Shown here: piece by piece, positions 2,594 to 46,000 of the stretch
Numbering within the stretch: the first letter of the stretch is position 1
How the letters are laid out: each line of letters begins with the position of its first letter
Assembly: GCA_963402885.1 (NCBI GenBank)
Contig: OY727093.1
Coordinates: 27,403,409 to 27,467,408 of the forward strand
Source: Antedon bifida
Taxonomy: Eukaryota > Echinodermata > Crinoidea > Comatulida > Antedonidae
DNA: 64,000 bases
Direction of reading: 5' to 3'
Program-made: the position numbers and the translations under genes
The notes under the pieces: model-generated
The model's database searches: none
Told to the model about the DNA's origin: nothing
Seen by the model: the letters and a program-made list of their open reading frames with translations, nothing else

Positions 2594-3117
2594 TGCTAAG
2601 TTTTTCCAAGTGATAGATGAACTTTCAAGTGGAATTGAAGTGAATGATGTACAGATGCTGAAGGTTGCCCTCTATGACATAATCAGCAATAAACAGGCAT
2701 TAGAAGCAGCATCAGCTAATAGTTTGTTTAGACTATTATATTCAGAGGGTCACATTGACATGTATAATGTTTTTAATGCTAATTGTGATCTGTTATTTGA
2801 AGTATTTGAGTTAACAGGACTTCAAAGACTATCTCAAATATTATCTAAAAAATATCGTAGATGGCGTCAGCTAAACAAAATCACAGGTTACAGACGGATG
2901 CTAGTTAAACTTGGCAAATCATTAAATACTCAACAAGTTGAAATCCTTGCGAAGCTTTGTAATATTGAAAAGAGTGATTCTGAAAATGTGTGGAATTTGA
3001 TTAGCAGATTGACTCAAGGCAAAATTGAAGACACTATAGAATCGTTGACGGCATTTGAAGCGCTTCTGAAGGACAAAAAAGATTTTAATCATGTACTTAC
3101 TATTGTAAGATCATTTG
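2594..3117 (+). CDS. Gene A exon: tandem death-effector-like domains
   Basis: Encodes about 174 residues. The first half (FFQVIDELSSGIEVNDVQML...) has the spacing of a DED: FxxVIxEL, LKVALYD, LFRLLYSEGH, LFEVFELTGLQRLSQIL. The second half, from YRRMLVKLGKSLNTQQVEIL through IEDTIESLTAFEALL, looks like a second six-helix death fold. Tandem DEDs are known from initiator caspases and c-FLIP; the assignment here is by pattern, so DD or CARD variants are not excluded. The acceptor is ambiguous (NAGNAG: after 2590 or after 2593) and the donor is gtaagt at 3118. Exit phase is 1. Confidence 0.75.
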
Positions 3118-19170: not shown

Positions 19171-19229
19171 CTCAATCGTGGGCCGTAATTCATGGCATCA
19201 AATGTTTACACTGAAAAGAAAAAAGGAAG
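19171..19229 (+). CDS. Gene B start exon
   Basis: Acceptor ctgtag|CTC, then 21 leader bases, then ATG at 19192 and 12 full codons (MASNVYTEKKKG) plus two bases. Gene C has the same acceptor and the same ATGGCATC(A/T)AAT start at 40022, which fixes the start in both. Donor gtaata at 19230. Exit phase 2. Confidence 0.75.
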
Positions 19230-22200
19230 GTAATAATATTGTGATCAATAATATATCTATTATCTTGATCATGTTATATTATCTAATAATATATATCTAA
19301 GGTCTATTATCCTTTATAATTTAAAAATAATTAATTGATATTCAGAAATTGAATTTATTTGGAAATTGTATTATCAGTAATTATAGTTACTAGAGGGTGA
19401 GTGTACGTTTTCTGTCGAAAATTATTGTTATTGAAATTGCTTGACATTCGTACAACTAAACCTACTCAGTTTCACAGTGTCTTAGATGATTAATATCATT
19501 TTAAAGTATAGTATTATTATTCAAAGTGATTTTTTATTGGGGACGTTTTGGGCGTTTATTCAATAAATACTATCCTAATAATTAATACATTATTTAATTT
19601 AAACATCTTTTGAAACTAACTTCCGCGACAGAGTGGGCCGTTTCGAGAAGGAAGACGTTTTAGACGGCTTGCAACATGGGCAGACGTATCCCGGTCCTAA
19701 CAGGACACAGATAGCCCACAGTTATTCCTGCCAGCTTACTCAATAAAACTCGGCTATCGGAATTTCACTCGATTTTAAACAAAAGGTCTTATCATCAGAT
19801 CTTGCTATGTAATTTTATAATACTATTCCCCACAATATACTCCGATGCTTTACGGCGTATATTTAACTGGATCTTTATTAATTTGCAGTATAATTTTTAT
19901 TTTTTAACTACTGTACCTTCACACGCGCGGTCCGATCCAAAAGTAAACAAAAAACTAAAATGGATATAGCTACTAACGGCCAACTTAGTTGAAACCAGGA
20001 AGTTGCAAGGTGAACACCCGTGAACGGTGAACTCATCGTGAACCCGGAAATTACTTGAACCGCGCACAATTGAAGTTGAATTGAAAATCTACCTATGAAA
20101 TCAGAAATGTGGTGTTAAAGCTCAGGTACAGGCATGAATTTTAAATATAATATTTGGTTAATTGTACATAAATCAAATATTTGTAACAGAAATCAAGACA
20201 AAAAAACATGAATTTCTCTTAATATGGCCAAATACAAAATTTGGCAAAATTCTTCCATAAAAACCAGGAAGACTTTTTTTCAGTTAGGTAGTTAACCTAA
20301 TGTAATAACATGTCTGGTGACTCCCTATAAGGTGAAAAAAGATGGTGGATATGCGGTGGATAATTTTTGCTATAGCATGAAAATAAAAAGCTGAAGTTGA
20401 ATAAAAATACCAGAAATGTAATATTCAAGTTATATTACCTATGTTTAGTTATCTGATAACATTTTTTACCACACTGTTTATTTTTCATAGCTTTTTAAAA
20501 TGCCTCTCTATTTACAAAATTTGTGTACAAAAGAATAGAGATTTTACTGTGTAATTTGAACTATCCCCCCACTGATAAGAAAGTGCTTATTTTCAACAAG
20601 CTCGTGTAACACAAATAAAATCCCAAAAATTATGAAACATAGGGGAAACTATAGATCGATAATTATTGGAATGTATGAGCAATAGAAATTTTTTTCCCGC
20701 ACCTGGCCTTTAAAACCCTTTATAATATCTTGCTAAGAAATATGGAACAATATTTTAATAGTGGAAACTAATGTTATCAAATCTACGTTTCGCGGTACAT
20801 CTGAGATAGATAAGGTAGGTAACCAAGGCGGAGATTTGTCCCGAAGTTTTTCCATTGTGCTCGCCTATGTCAGAATTAACCATAATTTATATATAGATGA
20901 CGTATTGTAATACATCCAAACAATGTAAACAAATGTGTTGCTACCATTTACACATCGTCAAAATGTTAATTATAAATATAGAATAAGACAAAGAAAAATG
21001 ATTAATTTGATGAATAAAAGAAAAATGATGGTTATTCAGACTTATGTAAACATGTTAATTAAACTTAATACTTTTTTTACAGTGAAATCTTGACAGACGA
21101 GACTGAGTTAGAGTAAGTATAAACTTAAACTAAGTTTTCAATTTAATAATTAAAATCATGAATTTAAACAATGCATAACTATTCTGGCATTATTGATGTC
21201 AACATGTTTAATTAGCCTTAATACTCTTTTTAAAGAACTGACGGATATAAACATAAACTTATTATCTAAGCACATGGAATTTAATTTTAACACTTCGTAG
21301 AACATTTTTAATAGTACACATGAATGGACTTATCAAATAAAAATTGCAGTATAGAAAACTACTTGTGCTATTTTGATTTACATTTCGGTCTTTCAAATAA
21401 ATGTAATAATTTAAAAAAAGTTAATATATTATTACTTTTTAAAAACACAACACGTATCGAAGGAGTTAGCTTTAAAAGACAACTTGACCGAGGACCATAT
21501 TTTTACAACGTATTAGGGATGTACATATGATTTCAGAACAATCGCGAGATTAAGGATATCGTCGCACGCGCTCGCCGTACAGCCGTTTTCACTGTTGTTA
21601 ACATACAAGATAGATTGGTACCGTCACTTCAATTGCTAATTTGACCTGTATTAGGCTTAAATATTCCAAAATGTTTAGTCTGGTGTTTTGAAGAAACACT
21701 TCAATATCCAGATAGGCAAAAGAAACAAGAAAAAAATTCAACATTTATATTTTTTACGATTTATTTAAAAAGTGTGTTTACTAGAAATGTTCGCGCTTTG
21801 TGAGACTTAAAATATGGTCCTCGGTCAAGTTGTCCTTTAATGCCTCGCTATTGGAAACATAGTAAGTTAATCAAGATAAAATATTCTGTAAAATATGAGG
21901 GAAAGAAAAGAAACCCCGGATAATAGGATAAACAAGTACTAAGAAGAATTTACATTACTTATGTAAGCTTACTAATAAAACCTTAATAATTTGTTACAGT
22001 AAATGGAGTAGACAGCGAGAGTAAGTATAAACATAATTATCTGTATATTAATGCTATGCTAAAATGTGAAATGTATTACGCAACAGTAACAATTCAATTA
22101 TTTCACGAGCACAAAGAATAATACATGTTTTACAAAACAATTGAAAAACAATGAAGTATAATGAAATTTAAATTTAATGGATTTTTATAATATAATTATG

Positions 22201-25200
22201 GTCAAGACAAAGCATAACAAAATCAAAATTGCATTTCTACACATCAGAAATTGGGTAGTGAATTCCTTATATTTTTAGAAAACATGACTACATATAGAAT
22301 GATCAGGTTTTTAATAATAATAGAGCAGTATATTGCAGAATTATTAAGACATTAATATTATGTAAGCTTACTATTAAATCTTAATTATTTTACAGAGAAC
22401 AGAGAAGAAAGAGAGAGTAAGTATAAACATACTCTTTCTAATGGTCTGCCATGCTAAAACGTGATATTGATTACGTAATACTTTAAAGTACACTGTATAA
22501 TGAAATATAATTTATGAATGGGCTTGTATTAGGACCAAGACAAAGTATAACAAAATAAAGATTTCATTTCTTACACCTCCAGGAATTGTGTATAAGCCAA
22601 CTGTATAAACTAACTTAATATCTATTTACAAAAACAATATAGTTACCTACTACTTCTAAAATAATAATAAATCAAATGTTTTCAGCCTAAATGCCTCACT
22701 TTCAATCAATCAATAATCAACATTTTTATTCCATATTTAAAAAAAACATATACAAATACAATAAAAATGATAATGGAATGGGATACGAAATAAGCACAAG
22801 TGTTTTTCAAACATGTAACCCTAGCAAACACTAGTACCAAAAAAGCTTAACTTAAATATTTTTATTGATATAATGTTGCTTCAATCTCTGCTTAAACAAA
22901 CTTAATGTGGGGGATTGTTTCATATAATAATGTTACATTATTCCAAATATGTGTTCTTGATAAGATATACATTGTTTTAGTTGTGGACAATAGTTTGACC
23001 TGTTTCTATAATTATGGAACGCCGGGCCAAATCAGTGATTAAATGATGCTGTTAATAGATTATTTTTATATCTGTGCATCAATATAGCAGCATGGTTGCT
23101 AATAAATATTAGAGCAGCTAATTAACTATTCATACATTGTTTATGTCTACATACTATTGATTTTTTTATTTATTTTTTTACAGAGAAGTGAGACAGGAAA
23201 AGTAAGTAGAATATTGCTTTTACTATCCAATAACATGACCATATAGAATAATCAGGTTTTTAGTCGCGTGGACGCGACTCTATAGTTCACTATGTCGGCC
23301 TGTCTGTCTGTCTGTCTGTCTGTCGGTCTGTCGGTCTGTCTGTGTGTCGGTCTGTCTGTGTGTCGGTCTGCCTGTCGGTCCGGTATCACTATGCATTGTA
23401 GCACGCGACTTAATGGCTGTTGGCCTTGTTAATAATAATAGAGCAGGACATTTTGTGGAGAATTATTAAGACATTAATATTTATGTAAGCTTACTATTAA
23501 ATCTTAATTATTTTACAGAGAACAGAGAAGAAAGAAAGAGTAAGAATAAACATACTATTGCTAATGGTTTGCCATGCTAATATGTAAAATGTGTTATGCA
23601 ACATTTTAAATTACAAGTAGTATAATGAAATATAATTGTCATTTACTGTAGTAAATTGTACCTTTAAAATAATTTTAAATTTATTTTTGTTCTAAGTTCA
23701 TGACATATTTTTAAATCATAATAAAGTCAAGGTTTAGTTTAAATGCACCATTATTGAAAAAATATAAGAAAAACTTATAATAACGGGTAAAGTTAAAAAA
23801 AATTAAGACAATTTATAATTATGTATGTTTAATATAACGTAATGAATATGAATACTTGTTTATTTTATAGAAAATGGGAAAGACTACGAGAGTAAGTATA
23901 TTTACACGATATAGTAATTTACCATGTGAAATGTGAAATTTGTTACGAAACACGAATGAAATTAAAAGTATGTATGTTTTACTATTAAGACATAAGGTTT
24001 AAATAAATCACTAACAAAACTTAATATTTTTTGACAGAGAAACAAGTAGACTGTTAGAGTAAGTATATATATATATATATTATTTAATCTTTTGTCTTTA
24101 GACTTTGTGGCCAAGGATTGCCAATAGTAAATTAATCACTGTCCTATCAGATAGGTGGTAATCCCCTTGATACAGGGCTATTTTGTGAACCAGTTCACCG
24201 AGGTAACCCCCTACTCTTCTCGAAAAATGAAGTGGGTTCTAATTGGTAAAAATAATAGGTAAGACATCATTTTTAAAATGCAAAAGTCATATAATACGTA
24301 TAGTAAAATGAATACAATGTAAATTTTATAATTTAGTGACACCAGGTGAAAATGCATACGTACACTTAATGGAGAAAGAGTAATTAATGGGAGACACCAA
24401 CTAAAGAGGAAACAATCGTAGTAGTAGTAGTTCAAAATAAAAGAGACACACTTTTTTCACTTTATAGGGTGAAGTTTTGGTCAGTGACTGATGAACTTTC
24501 AAGTGAAATTAAAGTGAATGATTTGCAGATGCTGAAGGTCGCCCTATATGACATAATCAACAACAAAAAGGAATTAAAAGCAGCTTCAGCTAATAGTTTG
24601 TTCAGACTATTACATTCAGAGGGTTACGTTGAAATTAGTTGGTTTGTGGAAGTTGATTGTGATCTGCTATTTGAATTATTTGAGTTAACAGAACTTCAAA
24701 GACTATCGCAAATATTATCCAAGAACTATCGTAAGCAGAAGCAGACAAATAAAATCACAGGTTACAGACGAATGCTAGTTAAACTTGGCAAATCATTAAA
24801 TACTCAACAAGTTGAAATCCTTGCGAAGCTCTACAATATTAGAAAAGGTGATTCAAAAAGTGCGTGGAATTTAATTAGCAGATTGACTCAAGGCAAAATT
24901 GAAGACACTATAGAATCGTTGACGGCATTTGAAGCACTTCTGAAAGACAAACAAGATTTGAATCATCTTACTATTGTAAAATCATTTGGTAAGTATATTT
25001 TTTTTAGCTGCATCGTTCTATTTCAATCAGAATATCTTACCCTGGGCCAACTTTTATTGCTCTGTTTTTTTTTGGTTTATGAATTTTTTTAATAAAAAAA
25101 ATGAAACAGTCATGATATCATATATGGAAATGTACACAATTCATTTCTAGCGTGGCTCTAGTCTTACAATACAATTACAATTGTAATATTTGATTTTAGA

Positions 25201-28200
25201 CAAATAATATAATAATATATAATAATATTTGTTTTGTTTCAGTGCAACAGAAAAAACTGAATGATGGTAAGAATAGTAGCTAAGCAGTAAATGTTTACAT
25301 TCAATAATTATCTAATGAAAATAGTGCCTGATAACATTTGGATGTATATATTTTTATACTTTCATTTATTTTTTGCTACGCTTTTTATATTTTTTATAAA
25401 AAGGAGTTAAGTTATGTTTCTTATATTTTTCTAGAAACTCTCTGTCTAAGTTCATACATGTACTGCATATCTAAAAAATCTGAAACCACACAAATGTAAT
25501 TCTTAACCAAGTAGTGCATGTGTATTTACATAATGTATGTCTTTTAAACATAATAATAGTTCCTCTTGAGGTGTTGGCAAGAGGGCAGGAGGCTAATGAT
25601 GCATTCCTTGATGCCATACAAGAAGGCAGCAAACCTATGTACCAAACACGTCTAATGCTTGTAGGACAAGAGCGTGTTGGTAAAACCAGTCTAACCAAAG
25701 CACTCATTGGTCAACCGTAAGGACTGTATTTAGGTCTACATTTTTATTTGCATTATATGTGCCTTAAAGTTCCTATTGAGGTGTTGGCAAGAGGGCAGGA
25801 GGCTAATGATGCATTTCTTGATGCCATACAAGAATGCAGCAAACCTATATACCAAACACGTCTAATGCTTGTAGGACAAGAGCGTGTTGGACACCTACGA
25901 AATTGGGCGAAGATCCTTAACGTCTGAGGCATGACCAACCTTCGGGACTAGTACAATGGTAGAAATCTTCCATGTTTTGGCAAATATTCAAATATTTATA
26001 ATATATACAAATTTAAGTAACAGTGCATCTGATTAAACAAAATAAAAGCTTGTATAATAGGTCACGGACCTAATAAACCAAATATGTTAACAGCGTGTTC
26101 TTTTCCTACACTGTATTGTTAAAATCTGTTGAATGACTTTTGTATTGCTTGAAATAACATGTTGAAGGTTTGTGTCATAAATGTGTTTAAGTTGTAATAT
26201 GTAGTAGAATGTGTTTCAGATATAATAGTACTTGTAACATTTATTTAGATTTGATGCTACTGAGGACGTGACTGATGGAATTAAAGCATCATTGTCATGC
26301 ACAATTAGTGTTAAGCATACTACTAACTGGAAACCAAATCAAATTAAAGGTATAGTACATTCATATTCAGAAACAAATATCTTAAATTAAAAATTGAAAT
26401 TTCAAACAAGTACGGATATGTAAGTAAGTCTAGTGGATTAAGGAAGTTTCAAAGGGTAATCATTACTGTAGGTAAACAATATTTGTATTCATTTTTTATT
26501 TAAAAACATATTTATACAGGATAACATACTAATGTAAATGTAATGTTTAACTTAATAAAGTAATGAGGTTCGGTTTGCTTTGAAATATGGTCCTGTTCGT
26601 ATAAAGTGAGACGCTAAACTACAGTACAGGTATAATGAAAATAAAATAGAAAATGAAAATTATAAAAATGAATCTTCTATTCAACTATACTGTAAAACTA
26701 TAATAAAAAGTTGTATTGTGTTTCAAACCATTCCACCTGAAACAATTAGTGAACTATTCATGAGCATTCATTTAGTTGTTAAGGAGGATTAATGTTGAGA
26801 TTTTCCTAAAAGATCCATGTCAAAAACCATTTCAATTTTATTACTTACATGTATATATTTTGTCCATTTTAACACGTTATAGCATAACCTCTGAGTTTTT
26901 TTTAATAATTTGTTTAAACATTTAATAAGATTCTTGCAGCTTCTGTAACCTCAGTAGTTTCTCAAAACAGAATGCAGAATTCGGTTGTACGTTTATAGAG
27001 TAAATTTAAGAACGTTTTACTGAGTGTCTCCGCTAATTTTGTATTTAATTGGCGTATAATAAGGAGCATTCTAGTTTCACGGATTTGAATTCCTGGGTAA
27101 CTTAACTACTTGATTCATGTCACTTGGGTATTCAGAGATACAGAAGAGCGTAAAGTAACTAGCTAACCATTCATAGTGACAATGTATGCAAAGATTTAAC
27201 ATTACATTACTTATATTCGCAGCAAAGAATGAAGTACGACAAGAATATATAAGAGCTCTTGCAGAAAAAATCGTAACAGACATTTTGAAGGATAAACGAG
27301 AGAATCAACATGAGGTTAGAACAATGTGATTACGATTATTAAATGTAAACAATGCTTGTATCATTATGTTATCTGTTGTATTTATGCTAATTATTTTTAT
27401 GCCATTGTTTGCAATATTATACAGAAGTTAATGCACCATGGAAATGCAAAACAAGAAAATAAAGAAGTTGGCAGTGTTGCTGAGCCAGAGGAAGATAATC
27501 CAATAACGTATTTAACTTCCTCACATGAAGGTATGAAAACTCGATTAATACAATACCATGTTTTAAAGTCCATCTCGTTACATTACATATTGAAGAACAA
27601 AGAAATAACAACATTTACGATGGTTGGGAGGGGGGGGAGGGTGGGTGGGTTCAATGGCATCAACACACGGAACTGTTGGTAGGTAGAATTGCAATACGGA
27701 TTTTGAATTTTTTTTCCTTACTGGGAGTCCTTATTATTAGTACTCTGTCTTGTAGTACTTGATTTTATTCTGGTAGGATTGTATTTAAATTATTATTGCA
27801 TGTTGTTGCTGCTGTTGTTTTTTTTGTTGTTGTTGTTGCTGTTTTTTGTTATTGTTTTCTTCGGCGTTGTCACTAACCAATTGTAAAGAGTTATAACTAT
27901 TTTTCCAAATATTATTTCTCATTTCTCATACGATATTTATTAAATATTAATTTACAAATAAATTGTTTTAAATAGTTAATAATTTGTGCAGACATTAAAC
28001 ACATCCATACATAACATTTAAATTTCTATTAGAGAGCACAAGTGAAACATTGAAAGAAAGAGTGGTAAGAGCAGTTAGAGAAACATTCAGAAGGATTTTG
28101 ACAATGAAGAGAAAGAAGGGAGAACAACATCAGGTCTGTATGCCTTCATTTTTAGTCGCGTGCAACGCGACTCTACAGCTCACTATGTCGGTCGGTTAGT

Positions 28201-31200
28201 CGGTCGGTCGGTCGGTCGGTTGGTCGGTCGACACTAACTTGTATATGGCCTTGTCTTGATATCAGTTTCATCTAGCTAAGTCAATTTTTCAGAGTATATT
28301 CCTTATGGCCAGGACTCGATGTGGTTATGTTTTTCACGATGCTCAATCAAAAATGACGCGGTCTACGCACGATTTAACGAAATCACGTTTGTAATCATAT
28401 CTTCACAAACATGAATCACAATTAAATAAAATTTGGTACTCATAAATTTCAGATCATATTTCATTATCATCATATGACAATACAATTACGTGCGTAGCGC
28501 ATATAACGCATGCGTACGCTTAACATTTTCAAAATTGTCAAATTTATTTTCGATAAAATTAGAGTACGTTTCAGGCAATTTTAAGCGTTTAAAACATTGC
28601 AATGAGTGCGCAGATTTTAGCACTCGTACTGCACGTAAAACGTTAATACGCACTCTTTTTTCCAGATTTGATTCACTTTCCAACTCGAAATTACGTTAAA
28701 CGAGCACGTCAAAAGTGACAGGCTACGCACGTGTACATTAAAAAAATATAAATGTTTTTAAACATTTTCCACATTTTTAAACATGTTTAGCAATTTCGGT
28801 CGGTCGGTCGATTGGTTGGTTGGTCGGTCGGTAAACACTAACTTAAGCACGCGACTACAGCCATGTATATGGCCTTGTTTATTAACAGTTTCAGTTTATT
28901 TAAACATTGTATAAAAAAGTTGAACTTTCGATTAACCATTTGAGTACTTGATAATTGGTTTATCGAAAGTTAAAATTGATTATACAGTATTATTTTAAAA
29001 CCAGATGAAATTTTTCGAGAATTTAAAATTTTTTTAGATTAAGGGTTTAGACAGAACAAATACTTTAAAAAATGTAATAAAAATTAAATTTTTTTGTATC
29101 AGTTTTAGTCTAAAAACATTGCTTTAAACAACTTAATGCCCTCAAAATCCACATCATGTCAATGCAACACTATATTATTATATACTGTTTTATTAATCAG
29201 GGTATATACTAATGCATAATTTAAACATTTTTATTTCATTTTGTAACAGGTTATTTTGCTTATTTTGTCATCTTTGCCTTTTTTAATTGTACTGTATATT
29301 ACTGTATATTGATTTTTGTTATACAGAAATCAAGAGAAATTGTAAGAAAGAAACAGGAAGATGATAAATTTGGTAAGGTTTAATGGAATTTGCAATGTTA
29401 TATGGCTTCATTAAGTTGTTGCTTTTTGTATTTTCTATATCTTGATTTTGGTTACAAAAAAAAGGAGTAGTAAAAAATAGGTATGATTTATTGGAATTAT
29501 ACATTACTAGATGGTACACGAGAGAAGCGAGCGTACCCACAGATGGTTCTAGAATACACAGTAATTTCAGCGTAAAAAAACTGGCGTTTTCAAATGTACG
29601 TACCGCAGAAACGAATAAATAGACAAGATGATTTATGTAGTCAACTATTAGCACCCTGTGAATTACTTTCGAAAGAGAAACTTGTGACAAAATGAGTCAA
29701 TTTTTTTTTATTGAAACTCCTTTAAACAAACCCAATTTGTGTTTTGTAAGTAACATTAGGGTTGAGGGATGAGGAAGAGGATGTTTACAAAGAAGAAAAA
29801 TGTTTAAATATATTCTTTAACCACTCAGTAACGAAATATTTTTTCATGTTTTATAGGCCAATAAGTAATATACCACTAAATACAGTAAAACATTTGCGAT
29901 TTAATACTTTGTTAAAACTGTCACTATCATAGTCGATTGAAAAGTACATGCAACGATGCACCACTTCGACGTTTATATTTTTTGTAATAATTAATACAAA
30001 CGTTCAGAAGCAACTGTAAGTAATACAGTTTATTTGTATATCATGCGTCTATAATCTAACAGTGTATACCATGATCGGAAAACATCCCTATTTGGGGCAA
30101 ATCGTTGAACCTAAATTCGTTTTAATTGTCAATAACTAATTATCTAACTCATTTTAATTAGTAAACAGGGTTACATCAGGTGGTTAAAATCAGTACCGAA
30201 AGTATGAACCAACTTTATATACCATCGAGTAAACATTCTAGAAGTTAGGCGCGATTTACCGAATTTTTCCCTTACGTAAATTTAACTCGTTGAATATAAT
30301 ATTATATCAAGTATATACATATCAGTAAAACGTTCATGTCGGCAAGTTATAGGTAAAATAATATGGGCGTATAGTTTATACAATAGTAAAAGACATTCCG
30401 TTTCGAAAATGCTGTATTTATTTATTCTTTACTTTAAACAGCACTTGGTGCATCTTCACAAATGACACATGATACTCAAGAAGATGTTACTGAACTGGTT
30501 GTAGACATGCTTGAAGAAAAGAGAAGATCTGCAGAAAAAAACGTGTTGAAAGAGTGTAAAGATTTACAGGAGACAATTGATGATCTGACTCTGAGCATTT
30601 GGGATTTTGCTGGACAAGATCTTTATTACATTACTCATCAGGTACTATAGTAATAGACACTTTTAATATTTGTTCTTCGCATTATAAGACATAATTTTAG
30701 ATCTAGGTGACAAGAAATAACTTTTCTTATATTATACAGAACTAAAAAACAAACAATACAAATGTAAAGGTTGATATCTATACTATGCGTGTATATAACT
30801 TATAATATGTAAACAATAATAAGTATTGTCTGGTCTGGCAATTTAAACATAACAGAATATAAAAACTAAAGGTCGTCGTATACTATGACTGATTAGCCTA
30901 GAGTCGATAATTGACTCAAATGATCAAACGTATTCAATTAACTTTTTAGAAAATGACACAAATTTATAAAAAATATATCATCTTATATTTATCGATTTAA
31001 GGATTTATATTCACAGTTAATTACAATTTTGATCGGTCGACAAATTCTACTTTTGTAATCAATATCAAAATAAATTTTGAAATTATATAACTATATTGGC
31101 AGATTAATCAGATATATCAATTAAACAGAAATAAGAGAATTAAATTTAAAATGGTATGGTTTTTTTATGTGATTGTTTATAATAAAAATAATATGATATG

Positions 31201-34200
31201 CCTCAGATTATGTGTAATTAATATGTTTATTCATTTTAATAATGTCTTGGTTTTGATAGATGTTTCTGGTATCTCGTGCTATTTACATCATCTGTTTCAA
31301 CCTCTGTCATGACCTCAATGCACCATCAAGAGTAAATGTATTTCACAGAGATTATGGGAAAGTAAGTAAGATAATCTAAACCATAAATTGAATAATGATT
31401 TGATTTTTATAAATTCATTTTTAGTTGTCTATTTAGTTTTTGGTTGTAATCTACGATTGTAATGTTGAGTTCAACTATGCCTTTCACGACATCTTCAGTA
31501 CACACAACATATTTAAATTAATCTATGCAAACAAAAACTTAACTGAAGTTTACATATTTGACCTAGATTACATTTTCAACAACTTAATTTAATTAAATTA
31601 TTTGTAGTGATATTAATTAGTTTATCGAGTTGTAATTAACATACCGTAAGTACCATACCGTAAGTACCATACCGTAACATATATTTACTGTATCTGAGGA
31701 AGACATGTATTATATTATTTTTATGAATTAGTTTAAACCATAGACAAGTGTGTTATTTGTTATTCTAATATTATTGTGTATTTTTTAAACTTGTTAAGAT
31801 TTCAGATGCCGACCACTACATGACTAACTTGGACCGTGTAGTTTTCTGGTCACATTCAATCTACTCACATACCACTGCCAGTACTACAACAAATGCAGTG
31901 TTAAGCCAGAAACAGTGTTCACCACCTATATTTATTGTGGGCACTCACAGAGAAAGTCTTCCTGGCAACAAGGAAGAGAGACATGCTATAGTGAGTATGA
32001 TTTATCAATTTAGTACCAGTCAAAGAAATATTTTTTAAATATGTATTACTATCAAATTATATATAGTTTTTTTTTTTAAAGTAGACATTCATATTATTTT
32101 TTTGTAGACTGAAGAAAGGTTTTCACTAATAAGGAAAGCATTTAAGGGAAAACCATATGAACGCCACTTTGTGTTCAAGTACTATGCCGTTGATAACAGT
32201 GTCAGGTCACCATTGGATAAGTCTATTGTTGAGCTTAGATATCATATAACAGAGGTAGCTAAGAATGAACCGTATATGGGGGATAAGATTCCATTGAAGT
32301 GGTTAAATTTCTTGCATGAAATTGAAAAATTACGTGCACAGAATGAGCACTCAGTTACCTTCAAACAGGCAAGTATACTACCTCTGTATATCATATCATT
32401 TAAATGAAAGATGCATTAATATGTAGAAGAGAAACAACACATTTAGAAGTTTCGATTATAAATACAAAATGCTTTTTTCATTAAAAAACATTAAATAAAA
32501 GAATGATAAATTCAGCACAAAACATAGATCAATTACAGTATGTGAGTGGTGTACGTTAAAAACAGTTCAATATTACATGTATGCCGCATACATTAATACA
32601 AAATCAAAGTCAGAACAGAGAAAGAAAAGACAACAGTAGGTATACCATTTAGGATTGTTGCCAAAAATAAAACAATTTAGCCTTTTTCAGTTCATATAAT
32701 AACTATTGTAAAGCTTTTTTGTGTCCAGATGTGATGATTTTTGTATTTTTTTCATTTTTCTATTTATTGTTTATATTTATATATTAATTATCAATTTTTT
32801 TTATCTTATACTTTTTTTTCTGTAGGCACCAAGTCTCATAATTTGTTTTATGATTTGTTTGTATTTCATTCTATTGACCTTTTTTTTCAAATTTCAGATA
32901 ACCAAACTAGCTTCCAAGTGCCATATTACTAAACAGGATCAATTGTTTGCTATGTTGCATTTTCATCATGACCTTGGTAACATTGTTTACTACGGAGAAC
33001 GAGACACACCAGATAGCGCCCTCAATGATATCATCATTATAATACCGCAATGGTTGATTTTCATTTTCAAGCTAGTTATCACAGTTAAAGATCCTTCAGA
33101 TCAAGTATGAGGTTTCGTTTCATTAATTTTGTTTTAGCATAGTACTGTACTTTCGAGTGCTGCAACATAAAAGTTAGTTTGTTTCTTTCAGCGCAACATA
33201 CATTATGCGTATGCTTATTTCATAGTTACACCTAATAGGGTAATAGTATTGTATTATTTATTTTTGATTTTTTAGTAATTATCAAAAAATATAGTGGAAA
33301 CTTTATTGTTAAATTGTTTCGATATTAGATGTTTGCTTAAGCTAAAGTAAGTTGGCATATACTATGTATACTTTATTTGTTTTTAATGTTGTTTTTGTAG
33401 TGGGAAGAGTTCAGAAGTTTCTGGAAAAAACTTGATGAAGAGGGACTCCTAGAGGAGAGACTACTTAAACGTACGTGGCAAGGTGTTCTTGAGCAATTTT
33501 AATCACTGTTAGAGCTGATGCAGAAGTTTGACTTACTCTGTATCAAGACTCAAGCAATTAAGGTATAGTTAGGGTAGCAGTGAAGAAAACTTCCTGCTTG
33601 ATTTTGGTTATGTAAATAAATAACACACAATCAAGAAGCAACTAAATAGTATGTTTAAAATAATAATTAATAAAGCATTATAACAACAATATTATTACAT
33701 TAATACAAACCTTTATAGAGTAAATATTAACAGAAAATAATTTGACTTTCAAAAAGGCAACTGAAGGTACTGAAGACGATCGCCTCTTCTATGTGCCATC
33801 ACTACTGAAAAAGAATGAAGGTGATGAAATTGTGTCACTTGATAGACTGACAAAGTCACAGACAGCCGCAGTTCTTTACTTTGACTTTGATGGTTTCTTA
33901 CCTGAAGGACTGTACTATCGACTCGTAGTAAGAATCGTGCATTGGTCACAACAAAGGTCACATGATGAGGGATATAATCCTAGGCTCTTTTACCAGCAGG
34001 TGAAAGTATACGTTGATCAGAATCATGATGCAATCATCAGAATCCTGCCTGAAAGAAGATCTTGTATCCAGGTAGGCAATAGTTGCAACAAGAATATACA
34101 TGTCTTAAATCCTAACAACTAAAGTTGATTGTCTTTTAACTGAAACTCCAAAAAATATTTCTTTTCATCTAATCTATGAATGATGAAAATGATTTAGTTC

Positions 34201-35648
34201 ATTAAAAGGAATTGTGATTTGTTTTTAAAACCAATTAACTTTCTTTTTGACACAAACTATTTGTATTTACAATTAAACTATTGGATGTTTTAATTAAGAG
34301 TAAATTAATTGATACACATGGTTATTTAAATAATAATTATCGTCTCAATCAAGTTACCATCAGAATACATAACGCAAAGTCCAATATTTGTTTATAGGTG
34401 GTTATTTACAGACTTAAAGTTGGCGGTAAACAGCTTGAACCATCTCCAAGTGTCTGCAAAGAGGCAAGTGCTTTTGATTAGAATAACTTTTAATTAGTGA
34501 TGCAGTATAAATTTGAAATTGAAAAGCAATTACAAAAATGTAGACAGCATATAAATGCATTAAACTTGAAACAAATACATTCCAATACCTTAGCTTGTAT
34601 TTCGGATACAGGTACTTGAGCTCATTGAAGCAAATCTACTGGACATTGGTCACAAATGGATGAAACGTGTTGTGTTTAACGTATGTGCTCTGTGCAACGT
34701 CTGTCCTATGGAGAACGTCCACTTGCACAAACTTAAAGATTGCATGCAGTCTACGCCTCGATGTGGGTCGGATGATGGAATGGATACTTCCAAAATCAGA
34801 CGTTTGTTTGCAAAACACAAAACAAATCCAGGTACTGCATGAAACCTTGTTCAGTAATATCTCACAAATACCATGTAACAATTTTTTGAATATAATAAAT
34901 CAATTGACTATGATTAAAATGAGTCCACATATAGTTCGGGCGGATACTAAAATGAGTTCACATATAATTCGGGTACTAAAATGAGTCTCAGTATCTATAA
35001 TTTCCCTGGAATCATAGGGAAATTATGTCCAATATTATCCTACCTTCACATGATATACACACGCTGCTTGTGATACACATGTGACACACGAGAGATGGTG
35101 TATTACAGAGTTTTCCCATAACATTGGACAAACAATGAAATATGGAGAAACAGTAGTGATAATTGGGTTTCTCAGTGGCATATTCTATTGTTATCTATTT
35201 TTCCCCAAAACAATTGTCTTAAATATAACAAAACGTTGAAATTAATTATAAAAATTAATTATTTTGTATTATTTCAGCTTTCCAGGCCACTCCTACTCAA
35301 GGAAATTCAAATGTTCCAGGGTTTCTGCGATTTCTCATTGGCATCTATAAAGACATTCCATCACCAATCTTGCCATTAGAAGTTATGACGCAGATTTGTG
35401 TTCGTCTGGACCCTCTTCGTTCAACAGACTACAATGACTGGCGTGGCGTAGCATGTAAGGTTGGCTATGATTGTTACATAGACTACATCATGAGCATGAG
35501 CTTTCTATCAATGATCAATAGTCCTACTATGTGTGTAATGCATGGATGGTCTGAGAAAGGTTTGTCATTGGACGATTTTAAGGAGTGTATGATTGAGATG
35601 AATCGTCATGATGTTGTACGTATTATTGATGAACATCTTAACCTGTAA
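19192..35648 (+). CDS. Gene B: microexon-stalk DED-DED-Roc-COR-Death gene with an internal stop
   Basis: Twenty-six coding exons: 19192-19229, 21083-21112, 22000-22020, 22396-22416, 23184-23201, 23519-23539, 23871-23891, 24038-24058, 24468-24988, 25243-25266, 25560-25716, 26249-26349, 27223-27314, 27425-27530, 28033-28133, 29327-29372, 30442-30641, 31260-31361, 31799-31990, 32108-32368, 32898-33104, 33401-33562, 33757-34071, 34398-34463, 34612-34831, 35278-35648. They total 3435 nt, exactly 1145 codons, which supports the model. Approximate residues: stalk 1-64, DEDs 64-237, P-loop 281-289, switch I Thr 306, DFAGQ 501-505, THRE 596-599. Codon 801 is TAA (33500-33502), so the predicted product is an 800-residue protein lacking late COR and Death, although all later exons are intact. 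Introns after 32368 and 34463 have GC donors. A young pseudogene, a truncated regulator or a sequence error are all possible. Confidence 0.82.
21083..21112 (+). CDS. Gene B microexon 1 (30 nt)
   Basis: Acceptor ttttttacag, donor gtaagtataaac. Phase 2-2. Adds SEILTDETELD-type acidic residues, reading across the joins. Confidence 0.75.
21476..21836 (+). mobile_element. 361-bp MITE with TTAA target duplication
   Basis: TTAA at 21472-21475 and 21837-21840 flank about 27-bp inverted ends (A(A/G)GACAACTTGACCGAGG...), with one mismatch. TTAA targeting is characteristic of piggyBac-type elements, though the ends do not start with CCC. Confidence 0.8.
22000..22020 (+). CDS. Gene B microexon 2 (21 nt)
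   Basis: Acceptor ttgttacag, donor gtaagtataaac. Phase 2-2. Encodes KWSRQRE with the joining codons. Confidence 0.75.
22396..22416 (+). CDS. Gene B microexon 3 (21 nt)
   Basis: Acceptor attttacag, donor gtaagtataaac. Encodes EEQRRKRE with the joins. It and about 60 bases on its left are nearly identical to microexon 5, so one arose from the other by a local duplication. Confidence 0.78.
22700..23040 (-). mobile_element. Retroelement 3'-end-like sequence, inverted
   Basis: Starts with tcaatcaatcaataatcaac and is followed by ttttattccatatttaaaaaaaa and non-coding sequence with no relation to the array units. A reversed LINE tail is likely; the family is not recognised. Confidence 0.4.
23184..23201 (+). 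CDS. Gene B microexon 4 (18 nt)
   Basis: Acceptor tttttttacag, donor gtaagtaga. Phase 2-2. Encodes EVRQEK. Confidence 0.75.
23261..23430 (+). mobile_element. AGTCGCGT repeat family, short copy with (CTGT)n
   Basis: Starts tagtcgcgtggacgcgactc, contains tctgtctgtctg / tcggtctg repeats, and ends cacgcgact ... ggccttgtt. Confidence 0.65.
23519..23539 (+). CDS. Gene B microexon 5 (21 nt)
   Basis: Acceptor attttacag, donor gtaagaataaac. Encodes EEQRRKKE. Duplicate of microexon 3, differing by one base in the exon. Confidence 0.78.
23871..23891 (+). CDS. Gene B microexon 6 (21 nt)
   Basis: Acceptor tattttatag, donor gtaagtatat. Phase 2-2. Encodes KWERLRE. Confidence 0.75.
24038..24058 (+). CDS. 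Gene B microexon 7 (21 nt)
   Basis: Acceptor ttttgacag, donor gtaagtatat. Phase 2-2. Encodes ETSRLLE, then joins the DED exon at 24468 (acceptor tttatag). Confidence 0.75.
24468..24988 (+). CDS. Gene B exon: tandem DED-like domains
   Basis: Same layout as gene A's exon (VTDELSSEIKVNDLQMLKVA and onward; second fold from YRRMLVKLGK). There is a single acceptor (tttatag|G GTG) with no ATG overlapping it, so this copy has no obvious start independent of the microexons. Exit phase 1 at gtaagt. Confidence 0.75.
25560..26349 (+). CDS. Gene B exons: Roc G1 and switch I
   Basis: Exon 25560-25716 carries GQERVGKTSLTKALIGQP; exon 26249-26349 carries FDATEDVTDGIKAS. A broken second copy of the G1 exon lies between them at 25770. 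Confidence 0.88.
25770..25891 (+). pseudogene. Truncated duplicate of the gene B P-loop exon
   Basis: Repeats the first 122 bases of exon 25560-25716 almost exactly, including its acceptor context (cttaaag). It stops at GQERVG, just before the GK(T/S) lysine, and runs into unrelated sequence with no donor. It therefore cannot substitute for the real exon. An internal change gives ECSK where the parent has EGSK. Confidence 0.85.
27223..30580 (+). CDS. Gene B exons: charged insertion inside the Roc domain
   Basis: Exons 27223-27314, 27425-27530, 28033-28133, 29327-29372 and the first part of 30442-30641. Helical units EYIRALAEKIVTDILKDKRE, ERVVRAVRETFRRILTMKRK and EDVTELVVDMLEEKRR share one pattern. 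This copy has the longest version of the 28033 unit. Confidence 0.78.
27625..27649 (+). other. G-rich tract, possible G-quadruplex
   Basis: GGGAGGGGGGGGAGGGTGGG type run in the intron just after exon 27425-27530, in otherwise AT-rich DNA. Confidence 0.5.
28153..28879 (+). mobile_element. AGTCGCGT repeat family, long copy with (TCGG)n
   Basis: Same start (tagtcgcgtgcaacgcgactc) and end (cacgcgact ... ggccttgtt) as 23261-23430, with gtcggtcggtcgg tracts near both ends and about 500 bp of different interior. Lies in a gene B intron. Confidence 0.65.
29515..29705 (-). repeat. Dispersed repeat, related to 40930-41065 in reverse
   Basis: gaaagagaaacttgtgacaa and the adjoining 150 bases resemble the reverse complement of the sequence in gene C's second intron. 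Confidence 0.5.
30055..30285 (-). repeat. Dispersed repeat shared with gene C intron (inverted)
   Basis: gcaaatcgttgaacctaaattcg and about 200 further bases match the reverse complement of 58945-59185. The two copies sit in different introns of the two genes, so this is an inserted element, not paralogy. Confidence 0.75.
30442..31990 (+). CDS. Gene B exons: Roc G3 to G4
   Basis: Exon 30442-30641 ends in IWDFAGQDLYYITHQ, exon 31260-31361 gives MFLVSRAIYIICFNLCHDLN, and exon 31799-31990 gives IFIVGTHRESLPGN. A Thr/Ala-rich insertion (HTTASTTTNAVLSQ) precedes the G4 strand and varies in length among the paralogues. Confidence 0.87.
32108..34831 (+). CDS. Gene B exons: COR domain, interrupted by TAA
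   Basis: Exons 32108-32368 (GC donor, CAG|gcaagt), 32898-33104, 33401-33562, 33757-34071, 34398-34463 (GC donor, GAG|gcaagt) and 34612-34831. In exon 33401-33562, where gene A reads LEIFEAL, gene B reads LEQF-stop-SL: a G-to-T change of a Glu codon at 33500. The frame stays open on both sides of it. Confidence 0.82.
35278..35648 (+). CDS. Gene B terminal exon: Death domain
   Basis: Encodes ICVRLDPLRSTDYNDWRGVA ... SPTMCVMHGW ... RHDVVRIIDEHLNL and TAA. Closely similar to gene A's exon and undamaged, although it lies downstream of the premature stop. Confidence 0.83.
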
Positions 35649-39992: not shown

Positions 39993-40053
39993 CTCTTTCG
40001 CGAGTCGTATGAAGTGCAACCATGGCATCTAATAATAGAAGACCGAGACAACG
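39993..40053 (+). CDS. Gene C start exon
   Basis: Acceptor atctgtag at 39992, a 29-base leader, ATG at 40022, then MASNNRRPRQ plus two bases; donor gtaata. Matches gene B's start exon. Confidence 0.75.
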
Positions 40054-43000
40054 GTAATACTATTTGTATCTTATAATAATAATAAATACCAATTTCACAA
40101 ACAGTAGCTTTTCTGAACATTGTATTAATTCACTTCATTAATGACGTACGTACGGTACGCTACTGTAATACATTTATTTCAATACTATTTTATTAGGATG
40201 GTCCATCCAACCAAAACATTTTAAGCATATATTGCTACACTATTGCACATTTTCAAACGTTCATTATAATAGTAAATGACTAGATTTATCTTGATGACAT
40301 GACTAGTGTTATTATTTATTGCAAGGTATGATATTTTGTTTAACTAACAGAAAATAATTTATATCAAAATAAATAGCATCAAACATTATGATGAATTCTA
40401 CCGACATTTAGAGACAATGAACTGATTTTCAATAAATAATAGAGCAAGAAATGTAAATAATTAATACAGCACTATTCATAAATCATTTATGTAGGCTAAA
40501 CATAATGAAACTTATATATTCTTTTTTTACAGTGACTCAGACGATTCAATGTAAGTATAAACTTAAACCAGTAAAATTAATAATAAAATCATAATGTGTC
40601 AGTCTCATGTACTATTAGTATGGTACTGTAAAGTAGTACAGTACAATGAAATATAAGATGATGAATAAACTTGCATGTTATGACCAAGACAAAGCATCCA
40701 AAATCAAAATGCATATGAACCTTAATCCCTCACTATTGTCACACATTTCTGAACTCATCCCTTGTATATTATATAATATTTCTTTTAAACGATTTAAATT
40801 GTGTTTAAATTAAAATGACTTGACACACACATTTTGTAAACACACTGTTTATAGGTCAGGAATGTCTATTCAATTATATGTACTGCGTTAATTTAGACTG
40901 TGATATTTATATAAAAAAAATATATTTTTAATAATTAGGACTCATTTTGTGACAAGTTTCTCTTTCGTATGTACTTTCCAGGTGCTATTCTATTTGACTA
41001 CATCAATCACCGTGTACGTGTTTGTATTTACTCGTTCCGTGTGAACGACATGTATTAGTCCTACATTGTCCTGTGGTTCATATATCCTTTAAAAATTGTG
41101 AAATTTATCATTTAACAATTGAATAAATACAAGTAGTAAACCTGTAATGAAATAATAAATTCATGAATGGATTTGTATTATTATTATAGTCAGCACGAAG
41201 AAAAACAAAATTCCATGTACTTTCAAATAATTGTAATTGTAAAATAAGTTCATGGATTATTATTTTAACAAACAAAACATACTATTAAATGTTACTGTCT
41301 GTACTATTTTAGAAAATTCTCCAAATTGTGAATTAATTTAATATAATAAGGCTAAATAGAACGAACGATGGAAATTTTGCTTATAAATCGATCGTTAACC
41401 CGTTTCTTGGAATATAGCATCTCCTTCATTTAATGATAACTGTGTGCATAGCATTATTGTTAAACATTCGTAATGTTCAGCTTCCATAATTCCGAATCAA
41501 CTTGAATTATTTTGTTCATGCCATTATTCAACACTCACAAGACAAAAGCCGTTCAAAACAATGTGATTATTGACGATATAGTTTTCACATTTTCAAAATT
41601 AAAAAGGTGTTTAATCAAATCGGTATCTGTCAAAAGACACGTTTAGTGAAGCCCCAGGTAACCCCACCACCTAAATTGTCCTCATCATCAAAAAAAATTT
41701 TAAAAAAGAAACAGACTTTTGTTTTCAAGCATTGCCCGTGATGGTGAATACGAAGAGAGATACAGTACTCTCCTTTATTAAGTGATGGTGAATTTGTATC
41801 GGGCCTAACCTTCTATCTCCCAGGCTTGTGATGAGACGACTATTCAACAGTCTCCCAATTTTCAACAGATTATCGACGTCCCACTTCTAAATAAATCACT
41901 TTTCAGTCTGGAGTACGCCCTCTGGCCTTCGGCTTATACAAACTCGACTCTCTCTGCTTTCATTCGACCAAAGATAGTAGTGGGGAACCTAATGTTCCAA
42001 AAATCAGTTCCGTGAGATTTTAATGCTCAAGTTGAGTTCTTGGCAGTTTTGGAATCCTTAGGACTAGCAGAATTCATTGCAACTGGGGGCCAATTTTTCC
42101 CGACCCTATTTTGGCCGCCATCTTGGATTTCAAAATGGCCCCCATTTTTTACTCAAAACTGATAGTAGCTCCTATTTTAAACCACGTACGAACATAATTT
42201 GTGTGATAAATCTTAAAATATTATTATAAATCAGTCCAATGGTACAATTTATAATAATAGCATATGGCAGCCATATTGAATTTCAAGATGGCCGCCATTA
42301 AAAACGTATATAATGTATGCATTTTATAGTCAGGGTCCTCGTGTATTTCCGTAGGATTTTAATGCTCAAAGTGAGATTTCATTTCTTTAATATGGTGCTA
42401 GGATACCAAAAATGCTAGGCAACAAATGTTCACGATCCCGTAACCATGGTAACAGTCCCAAGAACAAAATGGCGCCCAATTGGCCCTATCTCCATATCCC
42501 TTTGGTCTATCAACAAGATATTGGTATCAAAATACTCGGAGCGTATATATTTATATTCATTGTAATGGAACATTTTGACGAAATGTAATAGGAAATGCTA
42601 TTTTTCTGCACTATTGACCTTTGACCTTGACTTGCATTGTATCTAAAAAACGGCTGCTCATTGAAATTTAAAAATGGTCTCAAATTGCTGAGACCATACA
42701 TATTTATATTTATTGTAATGCAACATTTTGCTAGAAAATGACCGGAAGTAAAGTTATTGACCTTTGACCTAATAAACATGAACTTTGGTGTATACAATAA
42801 GCATTTATCTATTTGAGCATGTATCGGTAATTATTTGTGGTAGGTATTAAACAAAGGGTTTATACATATTATCATTTGAATATCTAATTTCTAAAGGAGT
42901 CCACAACCAGACTTTGCTCACAAACTTCAAAAAGCTTCAACTCTTTTTTATCATCTCTGTTTAAGATCTATTTCTTGACTTCATTTGAAATTATTACTAA

Positions 43001-46000
43001 GACAATGTTAAAAAAAGTGTTGATTTTGTTATGAATGTATTTTGATAAAATCTTGGAAGGATTTGTGTGTTTTGTGTTGAAGAGTGAGTTCGATGGGAAA
43101 TCCAGTTCGATTTCCTCATTTTGAGTAATGCCGCCAACAAGACCACCAACCCATTTTAACTGTGTTCCTTCTGTTCTTCTAGAGCCTGATCCGGGAAAAG
43201 AGCACTATTTAAATACAGATTTTTTTTCTTTACATTCAAATTAATTACTGTACATTCTTTTATTCTTTGTTATTTGATCATCTACATCTAGTGTTCGTAG
43301 TAGTAGTACTACTACACTATTTGATTCGATCATTCGACACATACCCCCTATACTATACTCTCCGTAGGAACCAAATATACTATAGCGCCACGTGGGGCTA
43401 TACCGTACGATCGATCTTTGGTAGGAACGTCTCCCTGCTGGAGGTAGGAGGACCTAGCATTTTTGACCGGTTGGAATTTGATGTTTATTTTAATGTTTTA
43501 ATTACATCTGAGCAATATAAATAATCGCGGATTGTAAATGTTTCAAAGAATACACAATTAAAAGTTTATCGAAACTATTTTATATTCATTTTGTCTATCT
43601 ATAGACTAGCTTATAGATACAGTAGGCCTAATTAGCCTACTACTATAACTAAAGGGCCTCATAGCCTAGCCTGCCCTGGGCCTAGAGGCTAGGTAGGCCT
43701 TCCTTAGGCCCTAGAACTAGCCTAGTCAGTAATAATAGGCCTATAAGCCCTAGTACCTTGATATCTAAAAACTAAGCCTAGACTAGGCCTAGGCATCATC
43801 CCAATTGTAAAATAAATTCATAAATTATTTAATATTATCTTTTTAAATCATAAAAATCAAAGGGTACAACAAGTAGGCCTAGTGTTATAATGAAATATAA
43901 TTACAGTATGTAAAACATACTAAGAGTCTTATAAGAGTGAGTATAAACTTTGTTGCTTACTAAAAATATAATATTTATTTGAAAGAAATTAAAAGTACAA
44001 GTAGTATTATAATAAAATATAAATTCATGAATGGACTTAATGTTATTATTGTCAAAGCATAACCAAATACAAATTTAGACTTCCTACACTTCAAGAATTG
44101 TGTATTGAATTTCATGTACGTTATTAATAATTTAAATCTCTCAAATAATTATGATAATTTTAAAATACATTCACATAGATTGTTATTAATATTATGTAAA
44201 CAAACAATATTTATAAAAGAAATGATTGTACAGCATTTAGTGTAAATAAAGAATGGTTACAACAAAGCATAACAAACATCAACATTGCATTTACACATAC
44301 TTCCTACACATTATTTAAATAGAAAATCAATCTTACAACTTTTGATTGTCTTTTTGAATATTTTAGATAATTGTCAAAATTGTAAAATAAGTTAATACAG
44401 TACTATAGTAGCATGGACCTATAAAATGTATAGGTCCATGATAGTAATACAAAACAGGTACAGGTACTGTAACTTGTTAAAACATAAGATAATCAAAATG
44501 CTTTTGACCTTTAACTTGCTATTGCAAATGTAATAACAAAATCAAGTTTAAACTAACTATAATATAATATGTTAAAACAATGACAGTAAATAGCAATCTG
44601 GTTGTCAATAAATAACAGAGCTGGTAATTTAAACAATGCATTAATATTCAGACATTATTTATGTAAATTTACTAATGAATCTTAATACTTTTTTTTACAG
44701 CAAATTGTATGAGTAAGTATAAACTTTAATTGTCTAATTGTTTACTAAATTAAAAATGCTAAATGTAGTACAAAGAAATTGAAAGTAAAAGTAGTGTAAT
44801 GAAATAATTGAATGAATCGACCTACAAATTATAGTTAAAACAAAGCATAATAAAATAAAATTTCATTTAGACACTTCCTATAACCCAGGAAGTGTGTATT
44901 GAATTGCATGTACTGTATTAATCTTTCAAATAATTATAATTGTAAAAATAAATTCATAATTATTATTTAAAAAAAATATATTTACAAACAAAAATTATAC
45001 TACAACTTTTTACTGTTTTATTTTGGGTATTTGAAATAATGTATACATTACAAAGTGAATTAATATATAGATTTTTGTCCAGATAAAAACATTTTTTTTA
45101 AAAATTGCTAATATACATTTTTAAATTATAAGAGAATCAAACGATTTTAGCATAGTGAAAGAAAAAAAGACAATACATAGCAGTCTAGTTGTCAATAAAT
45201 AATAGGGCAGGTAATTTAAACAATGCATAACTATTCAGACATTATTTATGTACTAATTAATTTTAATACTTTTTTACAGAGAAATGAGAAGACAAAATGA
45301 GTAAGTATAAACTTGAACTATCTATTGTTTAGTGTGTCATTTATTACAAAACAATTGAAAATACAAATAGTATAATGAAATAGAAATTCATAAATGGACT
45401 TGCATATTTTGGTCAAGAAGAAGCATATCAAAATCGAAATTTCATTTAGACACTTCCTACACCTCAAGAATTGTGTATTGAATTGCATGTAACTGTTTTA
45501 TTTCTAATTTTTATAATGAAATGCAATTATGGACTTGCATAATTATTAATGGTCAAGACAAATCATAACAAAATCAAATTGATTTTAGACACTTACTACA
45601 CCACAAGAATTGTGTATTGAATTTCATGTAACTTTATTAATGTTAATCTTTTAAATAAGTGTAATAATTTTAAAATAAATTCATAAATTAATAAGTACGT
45701 ATGATTATCTTTTTAAATCATATTTAATTGTTAAAGTGTCAAATTTATTACCTAACACTTAGAATTGCAAGTAGTAGTATGAATGGCTTTGCAATTATGG
45801 TTACCACAAAGCAATAACAAAATCAAAATTCAATCTTTTTAAATAATTGTAATAATTTTAAAATAAATAATGAATCTTAATACTTTTTTTACAGCGAACA
45901 GCTAGAATAAGTATAAACTTAAATTGTCTAATTGTTTGTTAAATTTAAAGTGCAAAATGTATTACAAAGTAATTGAAAGTAAAAGTAGTATAATGAAATA

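Follow-up and report, generated by a model that had tools for sequence, protein, structure and literature searches.

We have analysed a window of 64,000 nucleotides (nt) from the crinoid Antedon bifida (C1:27403409-27467408 in an assembly of 315.6 Mb in 27 contigs). It contains a gene, here termed gene B, in which seven very short exons lie between the start exon and an exon encoding DED sequence. We assign a probability of about 0.8 to the reading that symmetric microexons of this kind build a modular N-terminus in a crinoid gene family whose proteins combine tandem DED, Roc, COR-A/B and Death domains. That the microexons are genuine coding exons of the family is very likely, because matches to a strict splice-site pattern are largely confined to its loci, have lengths there that are multiples of three and lack stop codons in phase 2, and because their peptides occur in annotated proteins of Antedon mediterranea. 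The arrays are a feature of the family and are not special to gene B; an earlier, sequence-only reading of this DNA, which had described the array of gene B, missed this.

All features located below are on the + strand, in window coordinates. The start exon of gene B (19192..19229) encodes MASNVYTEKKKG and two further nucleotides, so ending in phase 2. It is followed by microexon 1 (21083..21112, 30 nt), encoding the acidic peptide EILTDETEL, and then by microexons 2 (22000..22020, 21 nt, KWSRQR), 3 (22396..22416, 21 nt, EQRRKR), 4 (23184..23201, 18 nt, EVRQE), 5 (23519..23539, 21 nt, EQRRKK), 6 (23871..23891, 21 nt, KWERLR) and 7 (24038..24058, 21 nt, ETSRLL). The DED exon (24468..24988, 521 nt) probably encodes a tandem DED and has a phase-2 acceptor. 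All seven microexons are phase 2-2, and the flanking exons (the MASN start exon and the DED exon) match in phase 2. The N-terminus after predicted splicing is MASNVYTEKKKGSEILTDETELDKWSRQREEQRRKREEVRQEKEQRRKKEKWERLREETSRLLEVKFW.

The gene model thus bears out the arrangement first proposed, i.e. seven exons of 18-30 nt, all multiples of three and all phase 2-2, ahead of the DED exon. Each had been credited with a good acceptor and a gtaag donor. The donors are as described (gtaagt in six, gtaaga in one), but the pyrimidine tract of microexon 2 is the weakest of the seven; this exon is missed by an acceptor-tract filter, and was found via its donor. It had further been claimed that any subset of the microexons keeps the frame, and all 128 of 128 subsets do stay open through the DED exon. 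The 26 exons of gene B total 3435 nt, of which the microexons contribute 153. This equals the 1145 codons (including the stop) that had been counted, although the frame is closed by a TAA at codon 801 that is discussed below.

The strict pattern, TTTTTACAG-N(9-33)-GTAAGTAT, is blind to reading frame, and genome-wide counts are lower bounds. There are at least 54 matches in the genome, compared with 22 for a backward-read control. Forty-seven of the 54 lie in loci of the family (45 in a cluster on C1 and two at a locus on C16), all on the + strand. The seven others are on C1 (far away), C7, C8, C13, C14 (two) and C16. All 47 of the matches within the family are multiples of three in length, compared with one of the seven elsewhere. 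A scan of the strict type within the window (pyrimidine-AG, 9-45 nt, GTAAGT) gives 12 matches on the + strand, 11 of them multiples of three, and two on the - strand.

The 47 matches represent 42 unique exons. Read in phase 2 these contain no stop in 209 codons, whereas the other two frames have 22 in 251 and 18 in 209. Across 20,000 shuffles of the exons that keep their composition, the mean is 14 stops and zero is never reached; note that the 42 exons are related by duplication, and are hence not 42 independent trials. No stop is created at exon-exon junctions in 2304 pairs formed from 48 exons. A frame test on 28 hand-chosen in-frame exons was set aside as biased; the test based on the strict pattern takes no account of frame.

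The microexons share their flanking sequence. With an acceptor-flank profile built from 14 seed microexons in genes B and C, 67 units are detected on the + strand and none on the - strand of a 224-kb region at E<0.05. The motif TACTAAT, a putative branch point, is present in 38 of the 67. The exons of the units range from 12 to 30 nt, lengths of 12, 15, 18, 21 and 24 nt being included. We define as intact a unit that has an acceptor, a GTAAG or GTGAG donor, and an exon that is in frame and free of stops. Six of the seven profile matches in gene B are intact; the seventh (21178-21232) is broken, and microexon 6 is missed by the profile. Gene Y has two profile-detected units, one intact and one with a weaker donor. 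The units of microexons 3 and 5 in gene B are 86% identical, and the gene on C16 has a 12-nt exon in four copies within similar units. Given these similar units the arrays have probably grown by tandem duplication.

Besides gene B the window contains the paralogues A and C, and there are further copies in its flanks. When the genome is searched with the gene B exon for the DED, 14 near-full copies are found at 27.15-27.66 Mb of C1, all on the + strand and stop-free, together with two partial matches of 44 residues on C1, one copy on C16 (67% identity) and one on C8 (45%). Strict microexons lie upstream of 11 of the 14 C1 DED exons. The three lacking them (L035, L036 and L037) have a start exon and two microexons in a different donor context. 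In the 13 kb that follow a DED exon there is none of the 45 strict C1 microexons. Eight matches to the start-exon pattern, ATGGCATCWAAT-N(12-30)-AGGTAATA, occur in the genome, seven in the C1 cluster and one at the C16 paralogue, and there are none in the control. The start exons of gene C and of L035-L037 (the last of MDATN/MDATT type) are additional to these. With that of gene C counted, a MASN start exon lies upstream of eight of the 14 C1 DED exons. The C16 paralogue has a start exon, four 12-nt microexons and one of 21 nt.

In the 1.5 kb upstream of the DED exon, seven of 16 near-full copies (L025, i.e. gene B, and L034-L039) have phase 2-2 microexons with good donors, and three (L026, L027 and L032) have a single 15-nt in-frame unit with a weak donor. 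No convincing microexon was found over this distance in L028, L029, L030, L031, L033 and L040 (on C8). Note that 1.5 kb misses the array in genes of the A/C type because their last intron is long, at about 2 kb.

In gene C the start exon (40022..40053) encodes MASNNRRPRQ and two further nucleotides in phase 2, and is followed by an acidic microexon (40533..40550, 18 nt, DSDDS) and by microexons at 44701..44712 (12 nt, KLY), 45280..45300 (21 nt, EMRRQN), 47825..47836 (12 nt, ERF) and 48394..48405 (12 nt, ELV). Two more, at 54916..54930 (15 nt, DTSE) and 55379..55393 (15 nt, KQLK), have the weaker donor gtaaat and the weak donor gtaata, respectively. The DED exon (57370..57899) has a phase-2 acceptor that is overlapped by an ATG. 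The DED exon of gene A is at 2594..3117; its array extends to the left of the window, with the start exon at window coordinate -71101.

Annotated proteins of Antedon mediterranea carry the peptides of these microexons. Three members of the family are named at NCBI (P0001, P0003 and P0004). P0003 begins with MDATNRFQNQEQERWLEERRRWTDAEFWSV. When the start exon, two 21-nt microexons and DED exon of L037 are spliced from the DNA, the product equals P0003 in 59 of the first 60 residues. In P0001, the protein nearest to gene B (92% identical across 94% of the query), the microexon 6 and 7 peptides are present and run in frame into the DED. P0004 has counterparts, some of them non-identical, of the last two microexon peptides of the Y type. 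By inspection there is no such stalk in the Anneissia matches P0005 and P0006. The findings on this family also suggest that microexons may drop out of gene models for families of this type.

Gene B has the Roc-then-COR order of a ROCO protein, Pfam finding Roc (PF08477, E 2e-15) and COR-A (PF16095, E 1.2e-10) before the TAA. COR-B follows it at a score below the Pfam cut-off. The last part of gene B has no match to the Death domain PF00531 at E<=0.1. Its relatives do match (E 1.5e-5 for P0003 and 1.3e-7 for P0004), and a stretch of gene Y is 97% identical to the last exon of gene B. The DED exon of gene B alone matches DED at E 6e-4, below the Pfam cut-off, and the C8 paralogue passes it at 4e-13. 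A profile of 28 copies of the DED exon matches tandem-DED structures of caspase-8 (E 1.1e-7), the match extending over the first DED and into part of the second. Sequence thus places DEDs in the family, and the DED exon of gene B most likely encodes a tandem DED like that of caspase-8. We also note at least 121 DED-like matches in the genome at E<=0.01, the family included. The distant ones lie on C7, C8, C10, C12, C15, C16 and others, which suggests a large DED repertoire.

The proposal of an N-terminus rich in E, R and K, encoded by the microexons and placed before a DED-Roc-COR(-Death) protein, is supported by this organization. Charged residues make up 63% of the array-encoded part of gene B, the acidic piece preceding pieces rich in E, K and R. 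The further suggestion that these join into a coiled coil or single alpha helix is supported by a weak trend at most. There is no heptad stripe of hydrophobic residues in the gene B stalk. The net i,i+3/i+4 salt-bridge score gives only a weak trend, with z of 1.6-1.9 relative to shuffles in gene B and -2.1 to 2.7 in three paralogue stalks. An AlphaFold model of P0003 has a helix at residues 4-37 with a predicted local distance difference test (pLDDT) value of about 35-57; the mean pLDDT is 57, too weak for conclusions on stalk or DED. An equation of the 21-nt exon with a coiled-coil heptad was dropped, given that hydrophobic residues occur at shifting positions and other units have 12, 15, 18 or 24 nt.

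We propose that phase 2-2 microexons of 12-30 nt assemble a modular N-terminus ahead of the DEDs. Each intact unit would carry its own signals, i.e. a U-rich tract with CAG or UAG, a short and often purine-rich exon and a GTAAG donor, to which many units would add the branch-point-like TACTAAT. Units would multiply by tandem duplication within the first intron and by duplication of whole genes. Joined together they would extend the part of the protein ahead of the DEDs, which in gene B gains an acidic and then a charged E/K/R-rich segment. The exons may be spliced in varying numbers. The charged, perhaps helical, extension might then set a distance or an electrostatic contact for assembly of the DEDs, so that stalk length and charge could tune DED-driven assembly or the choice of partner, with a possible role in innate immunity or cell death.

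A number of observations weigh against the reading of these exons as a coding, modular N-terminus. With a splice-site matrix derived from the domain exons, 128 pairs are found on the + and 120 on the - strand of the 224 kb, and a loose pyrimidine-AG/GTAAG scan finds 76 and 57. The loose scan of individual arrays was compared with 100 Markov sequences. It gives 13 pairs on the + and 26 on the - strand in array A (Markov mean 9.7, maximum 18), 7 and 1 in array C (mean 2.5, maximum 8) and 13 and 10 in array D (mean 7.1, maximum 17). Only arrays B (6 and 1; mean 1.2, maximum 5) and Y (5 and 1; mean 0.6, maximum 4) lie above all 100 controls. Splice-like pairs alone are little proof in long arrays. 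The matrices, and the loose scan in A, C and D, were dropped as evidence; since the looser scans do not separate the arrays from background, our case is based on strict sites, homology of the flanks, frame and order. Three of the 14 C1 genes (two of Y type and that with its DED at C1:27282395) yielded no start exon, the upstream stretch being examined in just one of these, of Y type. The DED acceptor of the C16 gene is AAAAG, a weak site. Nine of the first ten residues of P0001 match a translation, from an ATG, of the intron immediately before microexon 6, and the first residues of P0004 also resemble the intron upstream of a microexon; both 5' ends may reflect different start sites or artefacts of the gene models.

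The TAA in gene B belongs with these points. The 17 exons that follow the DED exon (25243..35648) comprise a 24-nt phase 1-1 exon and then the Roc, COR-A, COR-B and Death regions. The in-frame TAA lies in a COR exon (33500..33502). In the other three aligned copies of the 224-kb region (genes A, C and Y) the codon is GAA, and P0001 has glutamate there. As assembled, gene B ends before COR-B and Death. Of the earlier donors in the same exon, those considered by eye as a way round the TAA would shift the frame. The stop could be an assembly error, or it could mark gene B as a recent pseudogene or a polymorphic null.

The small strand excess in the loose scans, in a region rich in duplicated repeats, would fit splice-like sites arising by chance or from repeats, with no exons at all. 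This is already contradicted by the frame, the position, the exclusive occurrence of multiples of three in the family and the proteins P0001, P0003 and P0004, and we regard it as highly improbable. It is possible, if rather doubtful, that only the compact genes (B, the Y type, L035-L037 and that on C16) use their microexons, the arrays of A, C and D being relics in genes that start at the DED-acceptor ATG. The profile detects 29, 17 and 12 units in A, C and D, of which 6, 5 and 3 are intact; a further 3, 2 and 2 keep the frame but have a weaker donor. Only 14 of the 58 are thus intact and 44 are not, and beyond those with a weaker donor the remainder either have no site pair or do not keep the frame. 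Moreover ATGAGCAG, in which an in-frame ATG overlaps the DED acceptor (57362-57369 in gene C), is present in 10 of 16 loci. A transcript that is unspliced or internally started could begin translation at this ATG, and P0002, the protein nearest to the A/C/D type, does begin there, with no microexons. Yet the strict matches in A, C and D, selected blind to frame, are all multiples of three with no stop in phase 2, the start exons of these genes are conserved, and two of the 10 loci with the ATG are of the compact Y type.

The microexons could be real and nevertheless constitutive, encoding a fixed, fast-evolving linker in which the common phase is a by-product of the duplication of phase 2-2 units; we give this somewhat less than an even chance. 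Units that are duplicates with similar flanks would inherit equal phase, many intact units have strong sites, and P0003 includes both microexons of its counterpart L037. Yet exon lengths differ among the units, and P0003 is labelled isoform X2 in one source, a label that may hint at variants; the comparison covered the names and sequences of the annotated proteins. The charge of the stalk might also be a by-product of selection on the RNA, with no role for E, K and R in the protein. When exons are very short, a purine-rich sequence serves as their splicing enhancer, and 28 hand-listed microexons have 47% A and 24% G. We think this unlikely, in that several microexons at the first position are D/S-rich, not purine-only, and the frame stays free of stops. 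Within our preferred reading of a modular N-terminus, the idea that genes choose subsets of their microexons (128 are possible in gene B), giving stalk lengths and charges that set the DED or Death partners, is speculative and itself improbable on present evidence. If true, it would constitute a splice-coded repertoire in an invertebrate, derived from microexons and not from mutually exclusive long exons.

The closest analogues appear to be the micro-exon genes (MEGs) of schistosomes and troponin T. MEGs have many short exons, mostly symmetric multiples of three, together with long introns, duplicated genes and proposed splice variants (PMC10526429, PMC5825161). MEG exons form about 80% of the coding region, and the proteins are mostly secreted, with a signal peptide (PMC5825161). 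The seven exons of gene B fall within the 6-36 bp of short symmetric MEG exons, and the likeness drawn in the sequence-only reading is apt as one of architecture; homology is not claimed. In contrast to the MEG figure of about 80%, the microexons of gene B are the small fraction given above, ahead of a large DED-Roc-COR-Death protein, and by inspection the polar, charged start exon does not resemble an N-terminal signal peptide. In vertebrate troponin T (TNNT3, TNNT2) several exons mostly of one phase encode an N-terminal charged segment, and their inclusion shifts its acidity (PMC2447309, PMC8559874). Gene B similarly has several N-terminal exons of one phase encoding a charged segment (compare PMC2447309). 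Troponin T is a muscle protein whose alternative splicing is known, whereas the gene B segment is acidic and then of mixed charge, belongs to a tandem family and has putative alternative splicing. Troponin T is not claimed as a relative of the crinoid family.

The microexons of the neuronal SRRM4 programme are likewise short, at most 27 or 30 nt, and often keep the reading frame. Neuronal microexons are mostly single cassette exons across many genes, whereas the crinoid arrays are concentrated in one gene family. With Roc (PF08477), COR-A (PF16095), COR-B and Death the family resembles the ROCO proteins that have a Death domain, to which it adds the caspase-8-like DED region and the microexon-encoded N-terminus. 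Among the papers listed in searches of an open-access library, none describes microexon arrays of this kind in ROCO or DED genes, in crinoids or in echinoderms, which is no proof of absence.

The architecture of the micro-exon genes, known from mostly secreted proteins of parasites, would thus be placed on a death-fold signalling family of an echinoderm. Strings of tiny exons are a rare way to build, and perhaps to vary, the front end of a protein. Intact arrays beside paralogues whose units lack a site or the frame provide a natural series on the birth and death of microexons, from which it may be asked what sequence very short exons need for splicing, and whether protein diversity draws on phase symmetry.

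We note some further features of these genes. Genes Y and C each have a counterpart, equal in length, of the symmetric 24-nt exon of gene B (25243-25266, phase 1-1), which is located between the DED and Roc exons; the counterpart in gene A is partly aligned. Just downstream of the P-loop exon of gene B (25560-25716) there is a second, 3'-truncated copy with 97% identity (25770-25890). Two introns of gene B, at 32369 and 34464, begin with GC (gcaagt). The former is also GC in genes Y and C and GT in gene A; among the four aligned genes the latter is confined to gene B. An intron of gene A contains a 16-bp tandem repeat of about 29 copies (5917-6373). Lastly, C15 has dense Roc matches at about 13.46-13.55 Mb and 17.17-17.33 Mb, many of them in open frames of about 950-1030 amino acids, apparently another expanded Roc family with long single exons.

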